Shown in pieces: positions 34,691 through 45,157 of a DNA stretch of 64,000 nt. The stretch spans positions 186,001 through 250,000 of the forward strand of contig JACOSO010000096.1 of NCBI GenBank assembly GCA_016178785.1, given 5' to 3'. Origin of the DNA: Bacteroidota bacterium. GTDB taxonomy: Bacteria > Bacteroidota > Bacteroidia > Cytophagales > Cyclobacteriaceae. The position numbers were made by a program, and so were the translations under genes. Each line of letters starts with the position of its first letter. Positions within the stretch are counted from its first letter, which is position 1. The notes under the pieces are model-generated. The model saw only the letters and a program-made list of their open reading frames with translations. It made no database searches and was not told the DNA's origin.

Positions 34691-36154
34691 ATGTCGAAAT
34701 CAGTATTGTCTTTTCTTTTGTTTATCTCGCTAGCTCACTTTGCGAAAGCTCAGGTCACGTTCATTATTGATGGCCTGCCTCCCTCAACGCAAGGCAAGGA
34801 TACTATTTTCATCTGTGGCTCATTCAACAACTGGGTACCCAACGACAAACGTTATACTGTTCAAAAACAATTGAACGGGCAACTCAGTGTAGCGATTCCC
34901 AAAGGCGCAGGAGAAGTTGAGTATAAATTTACCCGTGGTGATTGGATGAGAGTGGAGACCAATCGGGAAAATAAAATGATTGGTAACAGAAAATTCAAGT
35001 ATGGCAACGGTGAAACAGTTTATGTGAAAATTGAAAATTGGCTTGACCAGGGTGGAGCACGTTCCTTGAATTATATCGTGTTGTATTTCTTTGCCTGCGC
35101 CTTTCAGGGCATCGCGCTTTGTTTACTGTCTTTCAAAATACAGAAGAGGGATGACGAAAAATTCACCGCCTTTATTTTTATCAATACATTCCTGATCATC
35201 CTGCTGTTGCTGCTGGTGATACAGGAGTTTTCCAACCCGATTTGGATGAGCTACTATACTTTCCTTTTCCACTTTGGGCTGTTTTGCTGGGGGCCTTCCA
35301 CTTTCTTTGTTCTTCATCATTTTTTAAAAAATGAAAGAAGATTTTACAAACCTTACTTCTTCGGCATCGCTTTCAGTATCGCATTACTTTTTGCTATAAT
35401 TCAAATCTTCAATTTGGAGTGGTTCAAGTTCTTAGCTAGACCGGTTCTTCCTCCGCTCACTTTAGCCAATCTACTTTTCATTGGGACCGGGTTTATTTAC
35501 AATTTCTTTTTGTTCGCGAGAATGTTTATCCTTTTTCCGTCTCTAACAATTTATCCAAAGATTGATCGTAGTAAATTAGAAATATATACCAATTCATTCT
35601 ACTGGCTTTCTTTTGTAACCATTTTGCTAGTGCCTGCCAATGTTGCAATCCTAGGTTTTATCTCGGGTCATCCGTTTTTTGAAGATTTTCATATTATCGG
35701 TTTGGTCTTTACGGTGCTGGTTTTCGCTGAGACATTTTTTATCTGGAGAAATCCGGAGGTATTGAAAGAAGTCAAGCAAGTTGCCCAGACTGAAGACACC
35801 TCAGAATGGTTTACAAAGCTGGATAACCTGATGAAGTCTGAAAAACCTTATCGCAATCCCGAACTTTCGGTTGCTGATTTATCTGAAATGCTGGGGGCGA
35901 AACCTCACGTTCTCTCCAAAGTAATTAATGAACACTGCGACAAAAACTTCCGCGACTTTTTGAATAAATACAGAGTAGAGGAGTTCATTTCTTTGGCAAA
36001 TAAGGACGAGTATAAACGCTATACATTTCTAGCCCTTGCTCAGGAAGTGGGTTTTAACTCGAAGTCAACTTTTAATCTTGCCTTCAAAAAATTAACAAAT
36101 CAAAACCCGAGGGATTATTTCAAAAGTCAGGAAACTGAAGAAGAGCGAGGCTAA
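34691..36154 (+). CDS. Membrane-bound AraC-type regulator with exported glycogen-binding-like domain
   Basis: 487 residues with an unusual order. A signal peptide (residues 1-20, AKA cut site) leads to a beta-sandwich resembling CBM48/AMPK glycogen-binding domains at about 22-115 (GSFNNW at 43-48, then YKFTRGDW). Seven hydrophobic helices follow at about 127-350. A cytoplasmic AraC helix-turn-helix pair spans about 388-478 (SVADLSEMLGAKPHVLSKVIN, then FLALAQEVGFNSKSTFNLAFKKLTNQNPRDY). Topology would place the sugar-binding domain outside and the DNA-binding domain inside. It sits directly upstream of a secreted amylase, so sensing glucan and switching on the amylase is the natural inference. 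Confidence 0.85.
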   Translation: MSKSVLSFLLFISLAHFAKAQVTFIIDGLPPSTQGKDTIFICGSFNNWVPNDKRYTVQKQLNGQLSVAIPKGAGEVEYKFTRGDWMRVETNRENKMIGNRKFKYGNGETVYVKIENWLDQGGARSLNYIVLYFFACAFQGIALCLLSFKIQKRDDEKFTAFIFINTFLIILLLLLVIQEFSNPIWMSYYTFLFHFGLFCWGPSTFFVLHHFLKNERRFYKPYFFGIAFSIALLFAIIQIFNLEWFKFLARPVLPPLTLANLLFIGTGFIYNFFLFARMFILFPSLTIYPKIDRSKLEIYTNSFYWLSFVTILLVPANVAILGFISGHPFFEDFHIIGLVFTVLVFAETFFIWRNPEVLKEVKQVAQTEDTSEWFTKLDNLMKSEKPYRNPELSVADLSEMLGAKPHVLSKVINEHCDKNFRDFLNKYRVEEFISLANKDEYKRYTFLALAQEVGFNSKSTFNLAFKKLTNQNPRDYFKSQETEEERG

Positions 36155-36291
36155 AAATGGCCGACCTTTTAAAATTAGCACCTTCTGATCTTTCAACTTT
36201 GTCTCGTTTTTTGAAAATAGGTCGATTGACGACTTCCCGCAATCGATTTTTGGTTTTTTTTTCAAGTTTTCAAAACATCAAAACCAAACCT

Positions 36292-38622
36292 ATGAAAATC
36301 AAACTCCTAATTGTCTTAGTAGCTATGGCCTTTTGTCTGCCCATTACGCAGGCATTGGCTCAAAATGATGTTATGATGCAAGGCTTCTATTGGAACGTTC
36401 CGGTGGATGCAGTAAACTTTAACGGCACCTGGTGGGACAACCTCAAAAACAAATCCACCATATTAAAAAATGCAGGTTTTAAGGGCCTGTGGGTTCCTCC
36501 TCCCAGCAAAGGAAATTTCGGTATTTCTGACATGGGTTATGGAATATTTGATCCGTATGACCTGGGGAACTACAATCAAAAGGGCACAATTGAAACCCGC
36601 TTTGGCTCGCGTACTGAATTAAATCAAATGATAAGCACGATGCATACAAATGGAATTGAAGTTTATGCTGACATCGTGCTCAATCACCTTTATGCGGACG
36701 ATACACAGGATGAATCAAACCCGGCAGTAAAACAGTATGTGTTCGACCAGGCGTATCGCAACGGGCAACAGTATAATTCTTATCCTACCAATGAAATAAA
36801 GTGGGTGATAAAGAACGCTGCAGCCGGTGATTATTACATTCAGATCTATGGTTACAATTTGCACAGTTCTACTGTCACAGAAAGAGGTTACGACTTGCAA
36901 ATAGACTATACTGGCAGCGGATTCAATACCAATTTTTCTTGGGAGTCGGAGCCTAATAATGGCAGCGGAAGTTATAATGTGTTCCCCGCCTCGGGAAATA
37001 CCATGCGCGCTCATAACGATTACAGTGGCGATTTAGATGAATATAAAATTACAGTGACGAGCCCAAGAGATGTTATTATAAAACTAACAGCGCGAAGGGA
37101 AAATTCAAATCCATGGTCGTGGGATTGGGCTGATCAAACCAATGGATATTATCCCAAAGTCATTTGGTATAACTCAAACAATATAGCAAGTACCACACAA
37201 CTGGAGGCTCATACCGATACCCACATTATCTACCCTACTCACACCGGTACAGGCGAAGCAAACTATTCATGGGGCTATGCTGACTTTCATCCGGTAGATA
37301 ATGCAGACTGGCTTGGTTATCCCGGCACTGATGAAGTGATTCCTAATACAAAATTCTTTGGCAATGATCTCAATACGTACAGCACAACAGTTGCCAGTCG
37401 TTATAAGAACTGGGGCGCTTGGTTAGCCAACACCATTGGATTTGATGGATTCCGTCTTGATTTTGTTCGTGGGTTCCAGGAAAGTTATGTCTCCGGTTGG
37501 GTGAATAATCTTCCCCTGCTGAATGGAAAGCAGCGCTTTATTGTCGGTGAATATTGGGGTGCTGATTATCGCATTAAAAATTGGGTCAACACTGTGTACA
37601 GTAATGGCAGTGCTCTTGTTAGTGGTTTCGATTTCCCTTTAAAATCTTCGTTGACAAGCGCGTGCAATGGCAGCGGAAGCAACTTTGATATGCGCTGGCT
37701 TAACAATGCCGGAATGGTACGAAACAATGCAGGCAATTCACTTCCTGGCACTTCTGTAGTTACGTGGATTGAAAATCATGACACGGGCAAAGAACATGAC
37801 AAGTGGATCACCAAAGACTGGAAGATGGGTTATGCTTATATCCTTACCCATGAAGGTCGCCCTTGTGTATTTTACAATCACTACTTCGGTGATGTAATGG
37901 TTGATGCTAACGACCCCAGTTATACAGTGACTCCTGCCTCAAGTCTTGGACTAGATATCCGTAAGCTCATTTTCGCAAGGAAGACTTATTTGAGCGGATC
38001 ACTCACAGTGTTAAGCCAGGTAGGCAATCCGTATCCCTCAGGCGATGCATATAATGTGTACGTTGCACGAAGAGGCGGCAATGGGACCAAAAGTGGTGCG
38101 ATTGTAGTCATCAATAATCACGACACTCAGACGAAAGGCCTCTGGGTGGATTCAGCCCCGTCAGGTTGGGCAAGTTGGGCAAATACAATATTGGTCAATG
38201 CTTTCGACAACACGCAAACTGCACAGGTTTATTCTGATGGCCGAGTGTATTTGTCTGCTCCACCCAGGGGCTATGCGGTGTATGTGAAGCAAAGCGAATA
38301 TGTTGCCTACACCGATCCGGGGGCGAGAGAAAGTGCTGTTGAAAAAAACGAGGAAATTAAATCTAAAGAAGGCACGGAAGGATTTGAAATGAATATATGG
38401 TCAAACCCAGTAAAGGATAAAGCCAACATTCAGTTGACATCAGCCCGTACGGAGCAGGCTCAACTGGATATTTTCTCTGTCGAAGGAGTGAATATTAATC
38501 AGCAGGTGATCATGACAAACCAAACCAGTGAAATTGATTTTTCCCCCTACCCAAGGGGCTTATATATTGTGCGGGCGAAAGCAGGTTCAATGGTAAAAGT
38601 GAGTAAACTAATAAAGGAGTAG
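36292..38622 (+). CDS. Secreted GH13 alpha-amylase with type IX sorting domain
   Basis: 776 residues from ATG 36292, chosen because a standard signal peptide follows (KIKLLIVLVAMAFCLPITQALAQ); the frame is open from 36157. GH13 motifs are complete: DIVLNH (127-132), DGFRLDF with nucleophile D390, VGEYWG with acid/base E420, ENHDT with D497. Between the third strand and helix, residues about 175-290 form an inserted beta domain with SEPNNGSGSY and SGDLDEYKITV, resembling a PPC/pre-peptidase domain. Residues about 700-776 (IWSNPVKDKANIQL to YIVRAKAG) are a T9SS sorting domain, so it is secreted or displayed. Hydrolyses alpha-1,4 glucans. Confidence 0.93.
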   Translation: MKIKLLIVLVAMAFCLPITQALAQNDVMMQGFYWNVPVDAVNFNGTWWDNLKNKSTILKNAGFKGLWVPPPSKGNFGISDMGYGIFDPYDLGNYNQKGTIETRFGSRTELNQMISTMHTNGIEVYADIVLNHLYADDTQDESNPAVKQYVFDQAYRNGQQYNSYPTNEIKWVIKNAAAGDYYIQIYGYNLHSSTVTERGYDLQIDYTGSGFNTNFSWESEPNNGSGSYNVFPASGNTMRAHNDYSGDLDEYKITVTSPRDVIIKLTARRENSNPWSWDWADQTNGYYPKVIWYNSNNIASTTQLEAHTDTHIIYPTHTGTGEANYSWGYADFHPVDNADWLGYPGTDEVIPNTKFFGNDLNTYSTTVASRYKNWGAWLANTIGFDGFRLDFVRGFQESYVSGWVNNLPLLNGKQRFIVGEYWGADYRIKNWVNTVYSNGSALVSGFDFPLKSSLTSACNGSGSNFDMRWLNNAGMVRNNAGNSLPGTSVVTWIENHDTGKEHDKWITKDWKMGYAYILTHEGRPCVFYNHYFGDVMVDANDPSYTVTPASSLGLDIRKLIFARKTYLSGSLTVLSQVGNPYPSGDAYNVYVARRGGNGTKSGAIVVINNHDTQTKGLWVDSAPSGWASWANTILVNAFDNTQTAQVYSDGRVYLSAPPRGYAVYVKQSEYVAYTDPGARESAVEKNEEIKSKEGTEGFEMNIWSNPVKDKANIQLTSARTEQAQLDIFSVEGVNINQQVIMTNQTSEIDFSPYPRGLYIVRAKAGSMVKVSKLIKE

Positions 38623-39754: not shown

Positions 39755-40285
39755 ATGGCTTTATTTGAAACGGCACTTCAGAAAACCCTGCTTAACGAAG
39801 GTGGTTATGCAAACGACCCTGACGATCCCGGGGGTGAAACTTATAAAGGCGTTGCCCGCAACATTTTCAGCAAATGGGATGGCTGGCAAATAGTCGATTC
39901 TCTTAAGCAGCAATCCGGTTTCCCATCAAGCCTTGACAAGAATGGTGACCTTCAGAACAAGATCCGTGATTTTTACAAAGCAAATTTTTGGGATCGCGTT
40001 CAGGGCGATGAAATCAATGACGAACATGTAGCCTCTTCCATTTTTGACTTTGCGGTGAATACCGGTGTAAGCACTAGCGCTATCCTGGCGCAACACGTAG
40101 TCAATGCCAACCCTGACGGAGTAATCGGTCTCAACACGATCAAGGCGATCAATGCGATGGACCCTGAATTTTTCCTCGCGGCATTCACAGTAGCTAAAGT
40201 TGTTCGCTACGTGGGTATTGTAAACAAGCGACCTGCCAGCCGCAAGTATTTCTATGGTTGGATTTCCAGGGCGGTAAATAGCTAA
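39755..40285 (+). CDS. GH108-type muramidase (endolysin-like)
   Basis: 176 residues of the TtsA/GH108 family (N-acetylmuramidase). The catalytic EGGY motif is at residues 15-18, followed by NDPDDPGGETYKGV. A C-terminal PG_binding_3-like part contains ASSIFDFAVNTGVSTSAI and PDGVIGLNTIKAI. It cuts the glycan backbone of peptidoglycan. There is no signal peptide, so release to the wall would need the holin encoded 44 bases downstream. In Salmonella a relative (TtsA) mediates typhoid toxin release. Confidence 0.9.
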   Translation: MALFETALQKTLLNEGGYANDPDDPGGETYKGVARNIFSKWDGWQIVDSLKQQSGFPSSLDKNGDLQNKIRDFYKANFWDRVQGDEINDEHVASSIFDFAVNTGVSTSAILAQHVVNANPDGVIGLNTIKAINAMDPEFFLAAFTVAKVVRYVGIVNKRPASRKYFYGWISRAVNS

Positions 40286-40329
40286 ATCACTATCCGAACA
40301 ATCGAATAATAACTATCAACGAAAATAAA

Positions 40330-40830
40330 ATGGGATTCATACAAAACTTATTCTCTGGTGGCGCCAGCCAACTCGTCAACTCTGTGGGCAATGTGCTTGA
40401 CAAAGTAATTACCACCAAAGGTGAAAAAATGCAACTGGACTTAGAGATGAAAAAAGCCGATCATCAATTTGAGATCGACATGCAGAATCTTTCTCTTGAA
40501 GATAAGAAAGCAATTCTTGGTGATATCGACAGCGCACGAAAAATGAATGCTGCCGTGCAAGAGAGCCCTAATGCTACCAAGCTTTCGAAGAACGTATCTC
40601 CCGTTCTTGCACTGGGTGGTGCATTGCTCACGTTCGTTCTCTTTGGGTGGCTGATGTTTGGCAAGTGGGATCCCAACGAGCAAAGCAAAAAAGAAATCAT
40701 TCTCTATGTGCTCGGTGTACTGAGTGGTATACTCACGCAGGTGTTCAGTTACTATTTCGGTTCATCGCAAGGAAGTGCTGCTAAGACTGATCTAATTCAC
40801 TCGATGCATCAGAATATGATGGAGAAGTAA
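40330..40830 (+). CDS. 3TM-type holin (GTA_holin_3TM family)
   Basis: 166 residues. The N-terminal half is amphipathic and charged (GEKMQLDLEMKKADHQFEIDM, then KKAILGDIDSARKM). The C-terminal half has hydrophobic segments at about 91-113 and 125-147, and ends YYFGSSQGSAAKTDLI, the signature of the holin family named from gene-transfer agents. Holins make membrane lesions that let endolysins reach the wall. Here it directly follows the muramidase, making a compact lysis pair without phage structural genes. Confidence 0.88.
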   Translation: MGFIQNLFSGGASQLVNSVGNVLDKVITTKGEKMQLDLEMKKADHQFEIDMQNLSLEDKKAILGDIDSARKMNAAVQESPNATKLSKNVSPVLALGGALLTFVLFGWLMFGKWDPNEQSKKEIILYVLGVLSGILTQVFSYYFGSSQGSAAKTDLIHSMHQNMMEK

Positions 40831-42330: not shown

Positions 42331-42795
42331 ATGATTGTTTCAGTTTTTCGGCCAAGCACAAAATTAGCTTCTTCATTCGAAAATTCCATTCCTCATCGTC
42401 TTCCATATTTATGGTATATAACTGCATCGATATTGCTGTCGGCAGCCTGCGTAAACACACACGCACAATCCAACGAACGAATCGCTGTAATCTCTGGCGA
42501 TGGCGCTTATGGAGTCTGGGGAGCCGGCCTTTGCCTAAGACTTCATGAAGTCGACAAAAATGAATACAAAATTGTAGTTGGTACCAGCACTGGCTCGTTA
42601 ATGGCTCCTTTAGTATTGCTCAATAAATATAAATTACTCAAGACCGCCTACACGTCCGTAACGCAAAAAGATATTTTCAATGTCAACCCATTCAAGCCAA
42701 ACGGGCAACTCAAAGCGTTAACAGTCGGGTGGCGATTTGTGTTCAACAACAGTTTGGGAGAAACCTATGCTTTGCGAAGGTTGATTAATAAATAA
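42331..42795 (+). CDS. Truncated patatin-like phospholipase
   Basis: 154 residues. The N-terminal hydrophobic segment (WYITASILLSAACVNTHAQ) suggests export. IAVISGDGAYGVWGAG is the patatin oxyanion region and VVGTSTGSLMAPL contains the serine elbow GTSTG (S86). The frame ends soon after, at about half the length of a patatin domain, and lacks the Asp-Gly part of the Ser-Asp dyad. It therefore looks 3'-truncated and probably inactive, or it is a fragment. Following bases show no continuation. Confidence 0.75.
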   Translation: MIVSVFRPSTKLASSFENSIPHRLPYLWYITASILLSAACVNTHAQSNERIAVISGDGAYGVWGAGLCLRLHEVDKNEYKIVVGTSTGSLMAPLVLLNKYKLLKTAYTSVTQKDIFNVNPFKPNGQLKALTVGWRFVFNNSLGETYALRRLINK

Positions 42796-42863
42796 AAATC
42801 AAGTTGGTACATTAAAGTGAGTTTAAAAGTCTCCTTCTCCGAAGGAAACACTAACGATGAATC

Positions 42864-43901
42864 ATGAAACGCATCATCACCTGTAGCGATGGCACCTGGA
42901 ATAAACCAGGAGAAAAAGACCGGGGCATTGAAGTAGAAACTAACGTAGAAAAAATCCACGATGCCATTACATCAAAAAGTATTGATGGCACACCTCAACT
43001 AAAGTTCTATGATCAAGGTGTTGGTACGAGTGCCTCACTTCAGGACGAAATCATGGGTGGGGCCACCGGCAAAGGCATTGACAAAAATATTCTGGATGCC
43101 TACAAATTCATCTTATGGAATTTCGAGCCCGGAGATGAACTCTATTTATTTGGCTTTAGCCGCGGGGCGTACACGGCCCGAAGTCTGGCAGGCTTCATCC
43201 GCTACTGCGGCATTTTGAGACCAGAAAACCTTTTGCTCGCCAATGAAGCCTACCAGTTGTATCATGATAAAACCAAACTCACCGGCCCCGACTCCGACCT
43301 GATGGTTTCTTTTCGCAGGCAGTATAGCATCGAAACAAGAATTAAATTTATCGGAGTGTGGGATACTGTTGGTAGCCTCGGTATTCCCTTAAAATCGTTC
43401 AAAGAGTTGAATACTGAAAAATACCAGTTCCATGACGTTACCTTGAGTAGCACGGTTGACTTTGCGTACCATGCGTTGGCCATCAACGAGAGGCGCGAAT
43501 TATTTGAGCCTACTCTTTGGGAAAAAAGCTCCACCGTAAAAAACACACCAGGCCACAAGCAGATGATGGAGCAGGTATGGTTCACAGGTGTGCACTCCAA
43601 CGTAGGCGGAGGGTACGAAGACTCCGGGCTGAGTGACATTGCATTGGAGTGGATGATGAAGAAAGCCGAAAACACAGGTTTATCATTTGACAGATCAGAG
43701 ATCAAAGATTTCAAACCCAACCCCGAAGGTGAGTTGAGAAACTCGCTGAATTTGCTGTACCGGATTTTAGGAAAAAAGTGGCGCGAGGTATGCAAGAGCA
43801 AAGATGGTAATGAATCCATCGACCCTTCGGTGAGACAGAGGTACAACCACACGGGCGAAAAGCTGCCACCCAACCTCGCAGAACTTAAGCCAACGAAATA
43901 A
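42864..43901 (+). CDS. DUF2235 alpha/beta hydrolase (Tle1-like phospholipase)
   Basis: 345 residues. It starts with RIITCSDGTWNKPG, followed by KFYDQGVGT and the nucleophile elbow FGFSRGAYTARS (S99), then WFTGVHSNVGGGYEDSGLSDIALEW, which carries later catalytic residues. DUF2235 includes the Tle1 lipase effectors of type VI secretion. No vgrG, PAAR or immunity-like gene is adjacent here, so its route of delivery is unknown. Its place after the holin, muramidase and patatin fragment suggests a lipid- and wall-attacking set. Confidence 0.9.
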   Translation: MKRIITCSDGTWNKPGEKDRGIEVETNVEKIHDAITSKSIDGTPQLKFYDQGVGTSASLQDEIMGGATGKGIDKNILDAYKFILWNFEPGDELYLFGFSRGAYTARSLAGFIRYCGILRPENLLLANEAYQLYHDKTKLTGPDSDLMVSFRRQYSIETRIKFIGVWDTVGSLGIPLKSFKELNTEKYQFHDVTLSSTVDFAYHALAINERRELFEPTLWEKSSTVKNTPGHKQMMEQVWFTGVHSNVGGGYEDSGLSDIALEWMMKKAENTGLSFDRSEIKDFKPNPEGELRNSLNLLYRILGKKWREVCKSKDGNESIDPSVRQRYNHTGEKLPPNLAELKPTK

Positions 43902-44056: not shown

Positions 44057-44740
44057 ATGACCAAAACCGTAGAAAATAGGCCAGAATTAGGAATAGGCAT
44101 TTACACTATTCCTGATATTGCTCAGATTCTTAGGTTACCCTACCATAAAGTTAATCGGTGGGTTAAACATTATTGGGATAATGAGCTGGGTAAGGAATTT
44201 AACAGTCGTTATTCATGGACTGATGGAAAGTCTATTGCCATAAGCTTTCATACACTGGTAGAATTGTATACCTTTTATCAATTCTCAAATGCAGGTGTAT
44301 CCGCGAGAAAAATCGTTGAGGCTCATTTAATCCTTTCTAAAAAATTCAATTCACCGTTCCCATTTGCAACTGCTGATGTTCTAAATTCAATTTCAACAGA
44401 TGGCAACCGCGTTTTCCTCACCATTAATGGAAAGGATATTATTAATCTGGACGTAACGCTTCAATTTAACTTGCAATTCATAAAAAGTTTCTTCAAAAAA
44501 ATTGATTTTAATGGAGGATCAATGGCGGCTAGATTGTGGCCTTTAGGAAAGGAAAATAGCGTTGTGGTTGATCCAGATCATCAGTTTGGGCAAGCAATAA
44601 TTAGCGGTACTAATATTAACCCCGAGACGATTCAAGAATTACATGATGCAGGAGAGCCTCATTATTTCATTGCCTCTCTTTACAATATCAATGAACGTCA
44701 AATCATTGATGCTTTGGAATTTTGTCAAAAGGCTGCCTAA
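44057..44740 (+). CDS. DUF433 antitoxin with MerR-like N-terminus
   Basis: 227 residues. The first 60 or so (YTIPDIAQILRLPYHKVNRWVKHYW) resemble a MerR-like winged helix. The last 70 (VVDPDHQFGQAIISGTNINPETI to INERQIIDALEF) are a DUF433 domain. This combination is the antitoxin of VapBC45-type pairs. The next gene, 3 bases on, encodes a PIN-like DUF5615 protein, as expected. The middle region is not recognised. Autoregulation is likely but not shown. Confidence 0.85.
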   Translation: MTKTVENRPELGIGIYTIPDIAQILRLPYHKVNRWVKHYWDNELGKEFNSRYSWTDGKSIAISFHTLVELYTFYQFSNAGVSARKIVEAHLILSKKFNSPFPFATADVLNSISTDGNRVFLTINGKDIINLDVTLQFNLQFIKSFFKKIDFNGGSMAARLWPLGKENSVVVDPDHQFGQAIISGTNINPETIQELHDAGEPHYFIASLYNINERQIIDALEFCQKAA

Positions 44741-44743
44741 TCA

Positions 44744-45157
44744 ATGATAATCTTGATTGATGAAAATCTTCCGCCACAGTTGGCTGATGGATTGAATATT
44801 CTTCAGCATCAACTCAACGTTAGGAACCAAACCAATCATGAAGTTAAATCCATTAAAAACGAATTTGGAGAAGGCTGCAAGGATGAAGATTGGATTCCAG
44901 AGGCTGGAAAAAGAAATTCAGTAGTAATTACACGTGATTTTAGAATTCAAAGAATAAGGCATCAAAGAGATCTTTGTGTTCAATATGGCCTAGGGCTTTT
45001 CTTTTTCAATGTTCCAAAAGGCGGTTTACCCTATTGGCAAATCGTTGTTAATCTTATTACTAGATGGGAAGACATACTGAAGATAATCGATGAGGAGAAA
45101 CCTCCGTTCGCATATAGATTCTCTGTGAAAAGTAAAAAATTGGAGTTGCTCGATTAA
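44744..45157 (+). CDS. PIN-like toxin (DUF5615, VapC45 type)
   Basis: 137 residues. MIILIDENLPPQLADGL gives the first acidic pair (D6, E7), CKDEDWIPEAG the second acidic cluster (D47, D49), and SVVITRDFRIQRIR the third (D65). These fit the metal-binding site of PIN/Mut7-C-like RNases. It is the toxin partner of the DUF433 gene. Its open frame and acidic residues are intact. The RNA target is unknown. Confidence 0.85.
   Translation: MIILIDENLPPQLADGLNILQHQLNVRNQTNHEVKSIKNEFGEGCKDEDWIPEAGKRNSVVITRDFRIQRIRHQRDLCVQYGLGLFFFNVPKGGLPYWQIVVNLITRWEDILKIIDEEKPPFAYRFSVKSKKLELLD

Follow-up and report, generated by a model that had tools for sequence, protein, structure and literature searches.

A 64,000-nucleotide stretch of DNA from a Bacteroidota bacterium of the family Cyclobacteriaceae (GenBank assembly GCA_016178785.1, contig JACOSO010000096.1, positions 186,001 to 250,000 of the forward strand; hereafter the window) carries a gene for a 487-residue regulator and, immediately downstream, a gene for a secreted alpha-amylase of glycoside hydrolase family 13 (GH13). 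The regulator is likely to be a membrane-held, phosphorylation-free alpha-glucan sensor that controls the adjacent amylase, working like the starch regulator SusR but built differently. Confidence in this reading has been lowered a little because the sister of the window's clade lacks a neighbouring amylase, because a second type of regulator lies near some of the amylases, and because the fold of the sensor is read from sequence only.

Architecture of the regulator and its exported domain

The sequence-only reading of this DNA had proposed a protein made up of a signal peptide, a CBM48/AMPK-like domain, seven membrane helices and an AraC domain, and this order is confirmed by Pfam, family profiles, hydropathy and loop charges (Table 1). 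A protein search with the regulator gave 282 proteins at E ≤ 0.001 among 8000 scored candidates, and 42 homologues taken from the best 120 of the 282 were aligned with the query (alignment A1, 43 rows). Pfam places HTH_18 at residues 397-478 of the query alone (E = 2.5e-11, above the cut-off), and the same domain is present in 43/43 members of A1, which marks this part of the protein as a DNA-binding domain of the AraC/XylS type. Hydropathy averaged over A1 has an N-terminal signal-peptide peak followed by seven membrane segments, one of which appears as two abutting peaks (260-261 and 263-273). The average number of lysines plus arginines in loops 1 to 6 is 4.9, 0.2, 2.9, 0.5, 4.0 and 0.4, and because these residues are concentrated in loops 1, 3 and 5, the N-terminus is assigned to the outside and the C-terminus to the cytoplasm. 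The regulator is thus predicted to hold its exported domain outside and its AraC part inside. Mean conservation in A1 is highest in the AraC domain (0.72), somewhat lower in the exported domain (0.64) and lowest in the helices (0.43); the sensor and the DNA-binding end are maintained and the seven-helix middle drifts.

The assignment of the exported domain as AMPK1_CBM/CBM48-like is based on sequence profiles and invariant ligand residues. AMPK1_CBM matches 35/43 members of A1 at E ≤ 0.1 (best 7.1e-7), and a precomputed table lists PF16561 for some of the listed homologues of the regulator. Run against the PDB, the A1 profile found 26 sequences at E ≤ 1, led by AraC-type DNA-binding domains and followed by structures of the AMPK beta carbohydrate-binding module (CBM; best E = 0.001), one amylase and a weak match to CD9. 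A second alignment, A2, was restricted to the exported domains (43 domains, tandem ones included), and its profile matched 14 PDB sequences at E ≤ 0.5, namely eight of AMPK beta (beta1/2), two amylases, two of SGBPdex, SusF and a pullulanase. All 14, judged by name, are alpha-glucan or dextran proteins. In AMPK beta1, W100, K126 and W133 are said to contact the bound carbohydrate (PMC2642990), and mutating them lowers glycogen binding (PMC2642990; PMC6274970). The residues aligned with these three by way of AMPK beta2, W48, K79 and W85, are invariant in 43/43 rows of A1; across the wider set A2 only W48 is invariant, with K79 and W85 present at 90% or more.

The adjacent protein matches GH13 (Pfam, 3.1e-13) and an NCBIfam PRK09441-type alpha-amylase model (2.8e-94, under that model's cut-off). 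It is probably exported because it carries the C-terminal sorting tail of the type IX secretion system (T9SS), and the earlier description of the next gene as a secreted GH13 amylase is supported by both the GH13 match and the tail. Its true start is probably the ATG at 36292 rather than the start given in the list of open reading frames (ORFs).

Linkage of the regulator to alpha-amylase genes

Chance adjacency was the first hypothesis, seemingly favoured by a search with PF00128 that gave no GH13 gene near close orthologues of the regulator among the matches listed. It was overturned by a search with the window's own amylase. Among 390 sampled genomes from the window's family, 14 (its own included) have a close orthologue of the regulator, defined by E ≤ 1e-150, and the amylase orthologue lies immediately downstream on the same strand in 14/14, truncated by the contig end in G349 and present in two copies in G061. 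The amylase itself was found in 17/390 genomes and adjoins the regulator in 14 of these. Further regulator loci were recovered from named genomes through peptide patterns in the AraC part, and cultured relatives with the pair include Reichenbachiella faecimaris and Marinilabilia salmonicolor. All told, the same amylase family is next downstream on the same strand in 23/23 loci of the window's clade, a set that was grouped after contexts had been inspected and in which several loci share a genus or species (e.g. L126/L128/L138 and L019/L035), so that they are not independent. At L019 an opposite-strand ORF of 91 aa is called between the two genes. The 23 loci form their own clade, with support of 0.92, in a FastTree tree of 98 proteins.

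The window pair stands apart from the sus-like locus of its own genome, on contig C53, and seems to be a stand-alone unit. That sus-like starch locus (C53 71603-83652, L211) sits, by eye, beside a LacI-type gene and not beside this regulator.

The association extends beyond the clade. The wider set took in 58 loci: all 36 rows of the family sample with the exported domain at E ≤ 1e-71 (the window included) and 22 of the 30 named-genome loci with the domain, the other eight (L008-L012, L014-L016) being left out as identical in domain sequence to loci already included. Two genes with a weaker exported domain, G381 and G017 (E about 1e-44), were also left out, and L155 was dropped for a stop codon within the regulator, leaving 57 loci with a full-length exported-domain regulator. 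Local profiles identify a GH13-type gene next to the regulator in 45/57 and within five genes in 51/57. The control consisted of 40 of the 91 family-sample rows whose match lies wholly past the exported domain, chosen mostly by rank and blind to neighbours (two of the contigs are shorter than 7 kb), and here a GH13-type gene is adjacent in 0/40. The difference in adjacency gives a Fisher p of 9e-17, relatedness being ignored. The local GH13 profiles were built from genes near exported-domain regulators and could be biased toward that side; a Pfam-based repeat on half of the control (20 loci in 17 genomes) found PF00128 within 10 kb in 0/20. A GH13-profile match anywhere in the stretch examined was seen at 2/40 control loci, L177 and, doubtfully, L184. 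The latter is probably not GH13, since Pfam gives CBM26 in one member of that model; PF00128 matches on the L184 contig lie at 42-55 kb, against 103 kb for the regulator. Homologues of the regulator are placed non-randomly, so that a check named in the sequence-only reading came out in favour of its proposal.

Two- and three-domain versions of the regulator exist. By length, 21/57 have two exported domains, and genes for both SusC and SusD occur at 16 of these 21 loci, 11 of them flavobacterial (L023-L032, L034) and five from the window's family. Pfam scans of representative two-domain loci identified a SusC-type receptor, SusD, SusE/SusF, a cyclomaltodextrinase-type GH13 and other GH13 proteins, with GH31 among the neighbours at L158. 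Three-domain regulators were seen at L160:8712-10886, L044:9959-12115 and L140:8567-10714, with no GH13 gene in the stretch examined around those of L160 and L044.

In the tree of 98 proteins, domain-bearing regulators do not form one clade apart from the domain-less ones, so either the exported domain has been gained or lost more than once or the rooting misleads. Few genomes of the phylum carry the close form at full length: a strict search at E ≤ 1e-60, with four candidates scored in each genome among the rows listed, matched only 3/395 genomes, that of the window and two in which the match lies wholly past the exported domain. The family sample has an exported-domain match at E ≤ 1e-71 in 29/390 genomes.

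A candidate operator ahead of the amylase

The gap between regulator and amylase measures 137 bp in the window, 119-286 bp in other loci and 491 bp in L019. A motif search set to place exactly one site in every sequence found a 28-bp motif with the consensus GGTCCGatTTTCGAAAATAGGTCGTTTT, in which two GTC-type half-sites about 19-20 bp apart can be made out by eye. Its sites begin 74-140 bp ahead of the amylase start codon. The motif scores 625 against 255-276 for six letter shuffles, a null in which each shuffle had 60 starts, the real set having had 300, and which does not remove relatedness. When each site was left out in turn at 16 of the 23 loci, 13 exceeded 13 bits, a level passed at 6/1,466,512 positions in control loci (one above 20 bits). 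Two results are independent of the training set. The second of the tandem amylases in L135 is preceded by a 29.1-bit site, and no site above 10 bits was found at 3/3 amylase orthologues (G013, G181, G002) that lack the regulator in the stretch examined, G181 and G002 offering only about 0.6 and 1.2 kb of upstream sequence and possibly missing a regulator from the assembly.

Conservation thus marks the window's 28-bp site as a candidate operator. A core pattern, fitted by design to the window's site, has one exact match and no second in the 4.47-Mb genome. One match near the sus-like locus, at C53:86953, was considered as a regulon member and set aside, as it sits inside a gene. Outside the clade the motif lies between regulator and GH13 gene in L025 (16.8 bits), L030 (17.6 bits) and L149 (13.0 bits); at the other loci none of the matches listed exceeds 13 bits in that gap, and six of those listed above 13 bits fall inside genes elsewhere. 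Regulators outside the clade probably use other sites.

Table 1. Features of the regulator-amylase pair, in window coordinates
Feature	Position	Strand	Basis
Regulator gene, 487 aa: exported glycogen-binding-type domain, seven membrane helices, AraC	34691..36154	+	ORF list, Pfam, alignment, hydropathy
Signal peptide, residues 1-20 (cut site judged by eye)	34691..34750	+	Hydropathy peak at 4-20, sequence
AMPK1_CBM/CBM48-like exported domain, residues 21-119, with W48, K79, W85	34751..35047	+	Profiles, alignment
Seven membrane helices, residues about 125-355	35063..35755	+	Family-averaged hydropathy
AraC-type DNA-binding domain, residues about 381-480	35831..36130	+	Pfam, alignment
Gap between regulator stop and likely amylase start	36155..36291	+	137 bp
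Candidate operator, conserved 28-bp motif	36201..36228	+	Motif search
Secreted GH13 alpha-amylase	36292..38622	+	Pfam, NCBIfam; ORF list begins at 36157
T9SS C-terminal sorting tail of amylase	38395..38619	+	Por_Secre_tail

Several other genes lie further along the window. A GH108-type endolysin with a peptidoglycan-binding domain is followed by a small protein with no Pfam match that looks holin-like by eye (39755-40830), and a short patatin-like phospholipase ORF by a Tle1-like phospholipase family protein (42331-43901). At 44057-45157 a DUF433 protein precedes a PIN_10 protein, and the two look, by analogy, like a toxin-antitoxin type pair. A scan for defence proteins gave no match.

Proposed mechanism, alternatives and known systems

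In the mechanism proposed here, the exported AMPK-type domain would bind malto-oligosaccharides or fragments of glycogen or starch in the periplasm, and binding would change how the seven-helix core is arranged or dimerises. The cytoplasmic AraC domains would then bind the candidate operator and control, most likely activate, the T9SS-secreted amylase. Since the Pfam matches of the regulator at E ≤ 1 include neither a histidine kinase nor a receiver domain, a single polypeptide would carry the signal. Products of the amylase might return to the periplasm and go on occupying the sensor, closing a positive loop. The relatives may be receptors of the same kind, with one to three exported domains, set beside other GH13 genes and sus-like starch loci.

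A number of observations, together with the limits of the shuffle null noted above, weigh against a glucan sensor that controls the amylase. The weakest step is the glucan specificity of the exported domain. With the query alone, AMPK1_CBM stays below threshold (residues 34-92, E = 0.009, 16.6 bits against a cut-off of 26.8), and the PDB matches of the A2 profile are weak (E 0.005-0.48). The AMPK-type module is also fused to a putative esterase in L228 (1426-2589; Pfam), and similar arrangements, with the domain ahead of an esterase-like protein, were seen by eye in L231 and L232-L245. CBM48 domains linked to CE1 esterases are described as having no affinity for the glycans tested or no starch binding (PMC8040265). 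Linkage has its exceptions as well: L146, the sister of the 23-locus clade, has no amylase in the stretch examined; it and five other loci (L150, L156, L157, L160, L044) make up the 6/57 with no GH13-type gene in that stretch; and the GH13 gene of the control locus L177 lies four genes away from a regulator without the exported domain. A gene of the Reg_prop/Y_Y_Y type, a possible second regulator, occurs within six genes in 4/23 clade loci. As for the operator, the leave-one-out scores are weak for L020 (13.0 bits), L017 (10.4) and L136 (4.2), and looser matches to the core pattern number 27 in the genome against 90 for a reversed-pattern control, so there is no excess.

Some details belong beside these points. 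The fusions of L228 and L231 seem to be exported, and most of those in L232-L245 have, by eye, no signal peptide. The regulator of L156 is at a contig end, and that of L150 adjoins SusC and SusD, with PF00128 matches 11-13 kb off. The Reg_prop/Y_Y_Y protein of L130 (15142-18186), the only one scanned, has a LuxR-like end; members of the same cluster occur in L136, L020 and L021.

The alternatives differ in which step they replace. The exported domain might be no alpha-glucan receptor at all and instead bind another glycan, or it might serve for dimerisation, or for docking to and reading a partner, for instance a SusCD complex or a binding protein. The L228 esterase carries the same module, and the CE1-linked domains that do not bind starch clasp each other in a crystal dimer (PMC8040265), but the invariance of the W/K/W ligand residues throughout A1 and the alpha-glucan enzymes next door, which never adjoin the domain-less control relatives, make this unlikely. 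About equally unlikely is a regulator that represses the amylase until glucan relieves it: the spacing of the sites from the start codon would suit either sign, but AraC-family proteins are for the most part activators. Slightly less probable again is that regulated proteolysis, set off once glucan has bound, frees the AraC domain from the membrane, in place of action on a tether. The linker at residues 356-380 is poorly conserved (0.39 in A1), as a cleavable tether might be, but the amylase is the only neighbour cluster shared by more than 4/23 clade loci; this counterpoint is a weak one, as most of the smaller neighbour clusters carry no annotation and a protease of the host could well be encoded elsewhere.

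It would be more surprising if the conserved site belonged to another regulator and this protein controlled something else. The Reg_prop/Y_Y_Y-type genes at 4/23 clade loci would fit such a role, but the window and 18 further clade loci carry the motif with no such neighbour within six genes, and the site is missing at the three amylases with no AraC regulator in the stretch examined. That regulator and amylase are unrelated genes thrown together by chance is barely credible: the isolation of the window pair from the sus-like locus would fit, but the constancy of the amylase across the clade and the adjacency test speak against it. The preferred reading remains that of a tethered glucan sensor acting on its neighbour. 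For the family as a whole, we put at only a little better than even the broader proposal of a new class of seven-helix receptor-regulators, in which an outside AMPK-type domain would signal alpha-glucan through the core directly to an AraC domain on a tether. Such a class would let several Bacteroidota orders control amylases and sus-like loci independently of SusR, with an operator of its own and with one to three glucan domains according to the kind of locus.

Several known systems resemble the regulator in part. The exported domain resembles the CBM of the AMPK beta subunit (AMPK1_CBM/CBM48) in profile match and in the three ligand residues, but that module belongs to a eukaryotic kinase complex and here forms the exported domain of a bacterial regulator. 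7TMR-DISM receptors combine an exported domain, seven helices and an intracellular signalling module; the regulator shares the exported domain and seven-helix plan, with no 7TMR-DISM match in Pfam at E ≤ 1. RsgI-type anti-sigma factors use an exported CBM as an outside sensor of polysaccharide, joined by one helix to an anti-sigma output, whereas the regulator has seven and ends in a DNA-binding output. In Bacteroidota, hybrid two-component systems likewise combine a periplasmic glycan sensor and an AraC-like output in one chain (PMC3878776), but the regulator has seven helices and neither kinase nor receiver domain.

Starch sensing in Bacteroidota is best known from SusR, which sits in the membrane, senses on the periplasmic side and controls starch genes through a DNA-binding domain in the cytoplasm (PMC3878776). 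Like SusR of Bacteroides thetaiotaomicron (BT3705), the regulator has a predicted membrane-spanning sensor and a cytoplasmic DNA-binding domain and is encoded beside starch genes. The sequence-only reading had regarded a sugar-binding domain on a membrane-held AraC regulator as an unusual design for transmembrane signalling without phosphorylation; since SusR already senses starch through the membrane, such signalling is not new as such, and what stands is the difference in construction, with an AMPK-type sensor, a seven-helix core, an AraC output and another predicted operator. The DNA-binding domain of SusR, compared here by description only, is said to resemble none of those in other known factors, and the sites predicted for SusR are direct repeats with a spacing of 67 or 77 bp (PMC3878776), as against an AraC-type domain and a 28-bp candidate site. 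SusR, so described, is the functional precedent, and the architecture of the regulator differs from it. Among the open-access papers listed in literature searches, no title or abstract opening names this architecture.

A study of marine Bacteroidota (PMC10108472) mentions polysaccharide utilization loci without obvious transcriptional regulators. In the family described here, a candidate regulator comes with a defined sensor and a candidate operator, and in the window's genome it apparently has a single target. Seven-helix signalling straight to DNA without phosphorylation thereby becomes testable using a single receptor, a single promoter and one ligand class. The regulator-operator pair also offers a compact starch-responsive switch. 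If the proposal is true, a glycogen-sensing module best known from AMPK would be at work outside a bacterial membrane.

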